Shown here piece after piece: positions 32,811 to 36,916 of a DNA stretch of 64,000 nucleotides. The notes under the pieces are model-generated. The model made no database searches. It was not told where the DNA came from and saw only the letters and a program-made list of their open reading frames with translations. The translations under genes were made by a program, and so were the position numbers. Source of the stretch: Chryseolinea serpens (GTDB lineage: Bacteria > Bacteroidota > Bacteroidia > Cytophagales > Cyclobacteriaceae); the NCBI RefSeq assembly GCF_900129725.1, contig NZ_FQWQ01000001.1:744001-808000 (forward strand), written 5' to 3'. Every line of letters starts with the position of its first letter. Position 1 is the first letter of the stretch.

Positions 32811-32820
32811 AACCCATCAC

Positions 32821-32845
32821 GGTTGTTGGTGTCCCACCAACAACC
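32821..32845 (+). repeat. Inverted repeat GGTTGTTGGTG / CACCAACAACC
   Basis: Perfect 11-bp arms with a 3-base loop, 10 bases after the transketolase C-terminal stop. It may stop transcription, although only a short TTCATT tract follows. It shares its core with the hairpin at 32913-32937. Confidence 0.75.
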
Positions 32846-32912
32846 TTCATTCAGCATTCACCGTGTTGACAGTAAAGACAGCCGCTCTGTCCTTCCTGTC
32901 TGATGCAACGCC

Positions 32913-32937
32913 GTTGTTGGTGTTCTTCACCAACAAC
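32913..32937 (+). repeat. Second copy of the GTTGTTGGTG / CACCAACAAC hairpin
   Basis: Ten-base arms with loop TTCTT; same core as the hairpin at 32821. The rest of 32846-33112 holds no gene; ACATCGCTACGG-like words recur twice near 32950 and 33005. Confidence 0.75.
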
Positions 32938-33112
32938 CCATTCGGCATCGCTACACGGAAAAACAAACACCCGCTCTGATTCCCTCATGCATTACACCGT
33001 AGACAACATCGCTACGGAATTCTATCGACCACCAAAAAATTCCATCCAACATCGCCGCAGTCAACGAAACCCGGCGTCACGTTCGCGAGTTTAAATTCCT
33101 AGTTTTATCACT

Positions 33113-33964: not shown

Positions 33965-34000
33965 TCTTTAGTATTGGGCAGTACTACCGGCTTTCCGACA

Positions 34001-34740
34001 AGCACGTCATTCCGCAGGCACGCATTGCCTCGATCTTCGCGTGTGGCCCAAGGAACCCCGTGGATGGCACGTTGGATCTGTGTGGTGATGAAGTGGTCGC
34101 GCAACTATCGGTGTTTGCCAGTGTTCGTTTTAGCTCGTGTGCAGGTTATCCACTTTCAGTGCTCTCGAAATTCGGGATGTCTTGGATTACTAGCGTAGGT
34201 TTTTAAAAAACGCGTGCCTGCGACATGACGAAGGACTGCCACGCGTTCTGAGAAGCACGTCATTCCGCAGGCACGCACGTCCTCGAGCTTCGCATGTGGC
34301 CCAAGGAATCCCGTGGATGGCACGTTGGATCTGTGTGGTGATAAAGTGGGCGCGCAACTATCGGTGTTTGCCAGTGTTCGTTTTAGCTCGTGTGCAGGTT
34401 ATCCACTTTCAGTGCTCTCGAAATTCGGGATGTCTTGGATTACTGGCGTAGGTTTTAAAAAACGCGTGCCTGCGACATGACGAAGGACTGCCGCGCGTTC
34501 TGAAAAGCACGTCATTCCGCAGGCACGCACGTCCTCGAGCTTCGCATGTGGCCCAAGGAATCCCGTGGATGGCACGTTGGATCTGTGTGGTGATGAAGTA
34601 GGCGAGCGGCTATCGGTGTTTGCCGGTGTTCGTTTCAACCCGTGCGGAGGTTATCCAGGCTCAGTGCTCTCGAAATTCGGGATGTCTTGAACTACTGGCG
34701 TAGGTTTTTAAACAACTTGTGCCTGCGACATGACGAAGTA
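34001..34740. repeat. Three tandem ~252-bp units with terminal inverted repeats
   Basis: Units begin at 34001, 34254 and 34506 (periods 253 and 252). Each carries a left end CGTCATTCCGCAGGCACGC (34005-34023, 34258-34276, 34510-34528) and a matching right end GCGTGCCTGCGACATGACG (34212-34230, 34464-34482; degenerate at 34717-34735). The arms pair over 19 bases with two mismatches. Units 1 and 2 are nearly identical inside; unit 3 has diverged. No open frame is conserved and no transposase is nearby. The edges resemble the CGTCATTGCGAG-type palindromic repeats of other bacteria. The array fills the space between two convergent genes. Confidence 0.9.
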
Positions 34741-34761
34741 CCGACAGGCTCGTCTACAGGT

Positions 34762-36842: not shown

Positions 36843-36916
36843 GGTCCGGTAGTTCAGCTGGTTAGAATGCCTGCCTGTCACGCAGGAGGTCGCGGGTTCG
36901 AGTCCCGTCCGGACCG
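36843..36916 (+). tRNA. tRNA-Asp (anticodon GTC)
   Basis: 74 bases. Acceptor GGTCCGG pairs with CCGGACC, then discriminator G. The D-arm is AGTTCAGCTGGTTAGAAT, the anticodon arm CCTGC-CTGTCAC-GCAGG carries GTC, and the T-arm CGGGTTCGAGTCCCG is standard. No CCA is encoded. Confidence 0.97.

Follow-up and report, generated by a model that had tools for sequence, protein, structure and literature searches.

Results

A three-unit array between two convergent genes

The window, i.e. the whole 64,000-nucleotide stretch of Chryseolinea serpens DNA that was analysed, holds an array of three head-to-tail units between two convergent genes (Table 1). Such units with near-complementary ends had been claimed in a preliminary description. 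The claim was confirmed by direct-repeat spacings of 253 and 252 bp and by the inverted arms of the units, CGTCATTCCGCAGGCACGC and GCGTGCCTGCGACATGACG, which are complementary at 17 of 19 positions. The period includes a 22-bp linker which precedes the left arm and begins with AAGGACTGCC in units 2 and 3. In unit 2 the arms are separated by 187 bp (206 bp start to start). Units 1 and 2 had been called almost identical. They are alike, with 93% identity in a 41-unit alignment (units 2 and 3, 92%; units 1 and 3, 87%), yet that wording was slightly too strong. The units had also been described as devoid of a reading frame, and neither codon-position divergence nor six-frame stops gave a coding signal. 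The three codon positions of the repeat diverge by 0.16, 0.17 and 0.18, respectively, and a coding element was rejected for this absence of codon periodicity; at most 22 of 68 copies were stop-free in any single one of the six frames.

A second, small palindromic repeat is located at 32819-32945 of the window. It consists of GTTGTTGGTG, a short loop and CACCAACAAC, with two copies near 32820 and 32915. It had many short matches in the own genome (G000) and in a congener (G002), and nine in G003 (query positions mostly 7-58).

Table 1. Coordinates of the window array, its hairpins and the flanking genes.
Feature	Position	Strand	Remarks
Metallo-beta-lactamase-fold gene, 283 aa	33113-33964	+	upstream flank; ends 14 bp before unit 1
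Unit 1 of tandem array	33979-34230	+	22-bp linker and double-hairpin element; from direct-repeat comparison and sequence
Unit 1, left CGTC-tagged hairpin	34005-34056	+	tag 34005-34008; stem 34009-34013 with 34052-34056; tail CCC; first pair A-C broken
Unit 1, right inverted hairpin	34177-34230	+	stem 34177-34181 with 34222-34226; tag GACG 34227-34230
Unit 2 of tandem array	34231-34482	+	from direct-repeat comparison and sequence
Unit 2, left hairpin	34258-34309	+	tag 34258-34261; stem 34262-34266 with 34305-34309
Unit 2, right hairpin	34430-34482	+	stem 34430-34434 with 34474-34478; tag 34479-34482
Unit 3 of tandem array	34483-34735	+	from direct-repeat comparison and sequence
Unit 3, left hairpin	34510-34561	+	tag 34510-34513; stem 34514-34518 with 34557-34561
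Unit 3, right hairpin	34682-34735	+	stem 34682-34686 with 34727-34731; tag 34732-34735
AAGTAC, 6 bp	34736-34741	+	possible remnant of a further unit start; from sequence
Type I phosphodiesterase/nucleotide pyrophosphatase gene, 404 aa	34762-35976	-	downstream flank; ends 26 bp after unit 3

Copies are dispersed in the own genome and in a congener

When one unit served as the query, a DNA search matched the own genome 65 times and G002 18 times. The genome-wide search for the 19-bp arm, which the preliminary description had suggested, uncovered many further copies: with up to two mismatches the arm pattern occurred 52 + 49 times in the own genome compared to 0 + 1 times for a reversed control. 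A strand-aware profile run over the places fetched after these first searches gave 84 copies or fragments in both genomes. In the own genome 67 of these are located at 37 places (36 full, 22 without the left part, 9 without the right part); in G002 there are 17 at 15 places (8 full, 6 without the left and 3 without the right part). A later profile search returned 77 and 17 matches, respectively, some of them the same copies on the other strand, and added two distant copies (L110 and L111) in a third congener, G005. Thus, the repeat is more than a local duplication. That a chance palindrome was merely duplicated in tandem at this site would agree with the three window units being more alike than most other pairs; the reading is refuted by the 84 copies and fragments in two genomes. 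A further two-mismatch arm match in G002 (G002:C1:7499438-7499455), outside the fetched places, resembles a genuine right end and is possibly another fragment.

Of the 37 own-genome places 19 hold two to four units. Stepwise tandem growth, as originally proposed, was supported because 13 pairs within arrays had a median identity of 91% vs 76% for 807 other pairs. The right end of the arrays reads exactly CATGACG in 38 of 46 cases, and the flanks beyond look mostly unrelated. At the other side, 24 of 37 first units have a linker with no more than one mismatch to AAGTACT within the preceding 34 bases; such a linker is found in 2.3% of random flank stretches. Two arrays include shortened 168-bp units with the same start after TGCGGTTCGGC (L041 2933-3279 and L043 2494-2661), a secondary deletion variant.

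The neighbouring ORFs, as predicted by a crude ORF caller, were tandem at 27, convergent at 19 and divergent at 6 of the 52 places; relative to tandem genes 11 elements had the same and 16 the opposite orientation. A predicted neighbour overlaps the element by 6-208 bp at 17 of the 52 places; therefore, only the remaining 35 can be called intergenic with confidence. The flanks of different own-genome copies have only four matches of 32-125 bp in common, hence no larger common element surrounds the copies.

Reach beyond the own genome

The DNA search covered 148 genomes from the family and 390 from the order and matched the own genome alone, a weak negative since few candidates were scored per genome and the same type of search missed the distant G005 copies. 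Within the genus it detected the repeat in two of six genomes, and the profile search added G005 as a third. Contamination of the G005 assembly is listed as 3%, and the contigs that carry the two copies are 11.1 and 4.1 kb long; consequently, the host of these copies is uncertain. A DNA search with a G005 copy gave nothing beyond its two copies in the six genomes. So far, the family is seen only within the genus, and single-sequence searches miss distant copies. An arm match in G001 was rejected: it had no profile hit and looks coding by eye.

An 18-base right-end pattern retrieved 20 records from named genomes, one match each and from mixed phyla. We read these as chance; records from the own genome or from one very close to it were possibly missing. 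Plasmids, phages and viral contigs gave no match (the viral contigs were searched with one exact 20-base pattern). A literature search in open-licence papers found no publication on this family.

Presence and absence between two species

For 22 own-genome places without a known G002 partner the corresponding G002 regions were located by pieces of the flanks. None of these 22 fetched regions had a profile match at E 0.001. At 12 of the 22 places the two flanks both match and are no more than 88 bp apart in G002, i.e. the site is compact and without element. At five places only one flank matches, and the actual counterpart may be located beyond the fetched region. Longer other DNA is present in G002 at L038, L039 and L042, and L045 has a longer gap on the own-genome side. 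At L040 the flank alignment continues through a 59-bp fragment, and at L028 and L034 it reaches 24-35 bp into the element. The place of the window array is without element in G002 and G001.

The cleanest filled/empty pair is L027/L092. Here, deletion at a CAA microhomology explains the difference as well as insertion does. By eye no target-site duplication was recognised in 13 filled/empty pairs, with most sites blurred by intergenic divergence.

Short TACTGGC-like repeats were observed in intergenic DNA (L085 around 1012-1086; flanks of L025, L046 and L028). In G002 a TACTGGC-like stretch occupies the place of the window array.

Paired changes support a local hairpin in each half

The left half of the unit contains the motif CGTC-[A/G]TTCC...GGAA[T/C]-CCC, the right half an inverted counterpart, GGG-ATGTC...GACAT-GACG. 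In the window units the 5-bp stems enclose loops of 38 nt (left) and 39-40 nt (right). In the 41-unit alignment these stems are co-varying local helices (columns 37-41 with 81-85 and 223-227 with 269-273) in which 99.0% of the cells are paired. Doubly changed cells numbered 18 vs 6.6 in shuffles (none of 500 reached this value), and six slid controls gave 0 or 1; further pair types were not in excess (6 vs 6.2). Because the helices were picked after a covariation scan of the same alignment, the 18 vs 6.6 result alone is not an independent test. Most other high-scoring pairs of the scan fit no helix and reflect subfamily linkage.

For the left stem the support comes largely from one pair position. 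The first pair, scored in 56 left halves of which 15 fall outside the 41-unit alignment, is A-T in 26, G-C in 23, A-C in 4, G-T in 1 and gapped in 2. When a tree was computed with the columns under test left out, both sides of this pair changed together on five branches; this was the highest value among 118 columns compared with column 37, ahead of 4 for the runner-up. Each of the other two changing pairs had a single joint change. A consensus fold of the 70 right halves recovered the right helix unaided; that of the left halves favoured a different, hardly varying stem. In the distant copy L110 the left stem reads ATGTC...GACAT vs ATTCC...GGAAT in the own genome, i.e. two pairs are changed on both sides. 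In L111 it reads ATGTC...GACAC with one pair broken, and the right tag is changed. Taken with the alignment, the paired changes support that the local hairpin of each half is kept.

One large palindrome had been among the initial readings of the unit. As a constrained structure this was unsupported in that form; paired changes speak for the local hairpin of each half. Folding one unit as RNA gave a mixed answer. In terms of energy, one long rod is the best fold of the complete unit, and 5-bp stems that close loops of around 40 nt are weak on their own, yet co-variation backs the local hairpins. A single rod-shaped RNA was rejected despite its good energy, as the outer arms do not co-vary: they are nearly invariant with 97.4% of the cells paired, and 168 of 500 shuffles reached their covariation score (41 units). 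Being too invariant for co-variation, the arms are uninformative and speak neither for nor against pairing with each other. Long inverted ends can thus mislead; the supported pairing sits inside each half.

Copies are maintained and some appear rewritten

Against a null of uniform decay with the same mean, which ignores shared ancestry, 57 of 258 columns were invariant (0.16 expected) and 141 were at least 90% conserved (45 expected). Orthologous copies in the own genome and G002 (eight copy pairs at seven loci) differed at 17/392 conserved, 56/335 intermediate and 138/346 variable columns; three of ten locus pairs were excluded (L029/L056, right half missing; L049/L064, inverted; L052/L063, very divergent) and at multi-unit places the nearest unit was taken, both of which favour similarity. 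Flanking fourfold sites differed at 676/2649 (longest ORF of eight locus pairs). Comparing conserved columns with fourfold sites, we conclude that the copies are maintained and not simply decaying. The variable columns differ more than the fourfold sites, as if paralogs had overwritten some copies. At several loci the ortholog was not the nearest copy (L046/L055, rank 25; L051/L057, rank 8). One intergenic site carries the element in opposite orientation in the two species (L049 2515-3292 vs L064 2409-2642), by inversion or independent insertion. A shared site therefore need not always reflect simple descent, given that some orthologs resemble each other no more than random paralogs do and that one site is inverted.

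Judged by the sequence, a structured RNA array, another of the initial proposals, is possible. As the whole explanation, i.e. a small RNA or 3' UTR element in arrays that the host selects for RNA function, with spread being incidental, it is improbable. Changes on both sides of the local hairpins, the strong column-wise constraint and the frequent siting near gene ends agree with it. However, Rfam had no match over the array (the sole Rfam match in the window is a tRNA at 36843), a search for sigma-70-type sites found no promoter-like site at the array, elements occur in both orientations relative to tandem genes, and presence or absence turns over between the species. Such an RNA reading overlaps with a REP/BIME-type explanation rather than excluding it.

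What moves the repeat

The preliminary description had suggested looking for a Y1 transposase gene elsewhere in the genome. Y1 domains are indeed encoded at two places in the own genome (L009 and L010), yet among the matches listed no arm match is near either gene. That the units are GTAG-type REPs served by a RAYT transposase, for which these two genes could be cited, is highly improbable: the tag is CGTC and not GTAG, the arms keep no company with either Y1 gene among those matches, and the gene at L009 adjoins other palindromes. This gene (1980-2380) codes for an IS200-like Y1 transposase of 147 aa, and the palindromes next to it are GCCCGTAGGGCTTCCCCATCATAAC and its inverse. Together they are a candidate for a separate transposase-linked repeat.

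An origin as a MITE had also been proposed at the outset. A MITE would be an internally deleted insertion sequence with terminal inverted repeats of 18-19 bp, moved by a transposase that is encoded elsewhere and recognises the ends. Terminal inverted repeats with complementary and nearly invariant arms, dispersed copies, the exact right end CATGACG at 38/46 array ends and presence or absence between species all conform to this. Nevertheless, we consider it unlikely. Among the arm matches listed in the own genome no parent autonomous element or other larger element was seen with these ends, although assemblies may be incomplete, and none was seen at the 15 fetched G002 places, a set from which four two-mismatch matches elsewhere are excluded. 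Furthermore, the own-genome flanks share only the four short matches mentioned above, no target duplication is visible in the 13 filled/empty pairs, the arms do not co-vary, and 22 of 67 own copies have no left end but keep the right. The latter had also raised target-primed retrotransposition, which was set aside; nine copies lack the right part instead.

Discussion

A probable REP/BIME-type family of CGTC-tagged double hairpins

BIMEs are paired inverted hairpins which are repeated between genes. The array in the window is, at a probability of roughly 0.7, one site of an interspersed, non-autonomous family of this REP/BIME type, built from CGTC-tagged head-head hairpin units. Its copies are dispersed, sit mostly between genes, have local hairpins, are constrained at the level of bases, differ in presence between the species and form in-register arrays. 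According to this proposal, two CGTC-tagged hairpins in head-head orientation would make up the unit of about 252-262 bp, with a spacer of about 120 bp, conserved in part, between them. The left hairpin would consist of CGTC, a 5-bp stem, a loop of about 38 nt and CCC, the right one of the inverted counterpart with a different stem. Copies would be placed in trans by an enzyme without a linked gene, which may act on the hairpins as single strands in the manner of REP transposases. Arrays would grow and shrink via in-register recombination or slippage, and gene conversion would partly rewrite the copies. Because many copies are close to gene ends, any effect on the host would probably be exerted on mRNA 3' ends, by RNA hairpins.

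Tentatively, the unit may even be a cassette of about 250 nt that is mobile or replicates as a self-contained whole. Its two unlike hairpins and the central block would all be needed, an enzyme without linked gene would move it in trans, and conversion would keep rewriting it at its sites. This narrower version is doubtful. If true, long-loop CGTC double hairpins would be a third REP-like system beside the classical GTAG and CGTC REPs.

Comparison with known repeat systems

The preliminary description had noted a resemblance to CGTC-type repeats, and tag and head-head pairing bear this out. The left tag is CGTC in 50/56 copies and the right one GACG in 65/70, and the five-pair stem is complete in 48/56 left and 67/70 right copies. 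In the right stem the A-T pair is present in 64/70 and the T-A pair in 69/70 copies; the second pair of the left stem is T-A in 56/56. The left tail is CCC in 51/56 and CCA in 4/56, the right one GGG (complement CCC) in 63/70 and TGG (complement CCA) in 4/70. Full head-head units make up 36/67 own copies.

CGTC-tagged REPs have been reported from five phyla including Bacteroidetes (Di Nocera, De Gregorio and Rocco, 2013; PMC3733652). As presented in the sections of that survey used here, they have a terminal unpaired CGTC tag, a stem of 8-9 bp with complementary A and T at its first two positions, a loop of 4-5 nt and a 3-nt tail that is mostly CCA. Head-head dimers predominate, clusters are rare and no transposase gene is associated. 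Compared with these sections, our repeat is similar to the head-head heterodimers in its outer CGTC tag and in pairs with different stems. Its stem begins with A-T/T-A in most copies, its tail is short and C-rich, it is located mainly by tandem or convergent genes and, from the Y1 scan, it has no linked transposase. In contrast, it has a 5-bp stem with a loop of about 38 nt instead of 8-9 bp with 4-5 nt, a tail which is mostly CCC instead of CCA, a spacer of about 120 bp instead of mostly 20-100 bp, and common tandem arrays. A form of the classical CGTC repeat of Bacteroidetes, at which the preliminary description had also hinted, had no match with up to three mismatches in the six genomes of the genus. 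Because of the shorter stems, much larger loops, different tail and common arrays the repeat was not filed as a member of the CGTC-REPs. By comparison, the unit would be built like a head-head CGTC-REP dimer, the nearest described kind, and is best set apart as a variant.

With GTAG REPs associated with RAYT transposases, as far as they are treated in the same sections (PMC3733652), and with BIMEs the repeat shares paired inverted hairpins at repeated intergenic places, but it has no GTAG tag and no Y1 gene was seen beside it. Two MITEs of Bacteroidota, taken from parts of the respective reports, are likewise short, non-coding and have inverted ends: BrickBuilt of Porphyromonas (PMC4596501) and an IS982-derived element of Cardinium (PMC9769881). 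BrickBuilt is also intergenic and contains tandem repeats; however, there 23-nt units are repeated inside one element whereas the unit repeated in our family is the element as a whole. The Cardinium element has intact parent IS copies; here there is no parent among the matches listed.

The 2013 survey, in the sections used, did not settle by what route CGTC-tagged repeats spread if no dedicated transposase serves them (PMC3733652). This question becomes testable with the present family, which offers a pair of close species with both filled and empty sites, differences in copy number and measurable constraint.
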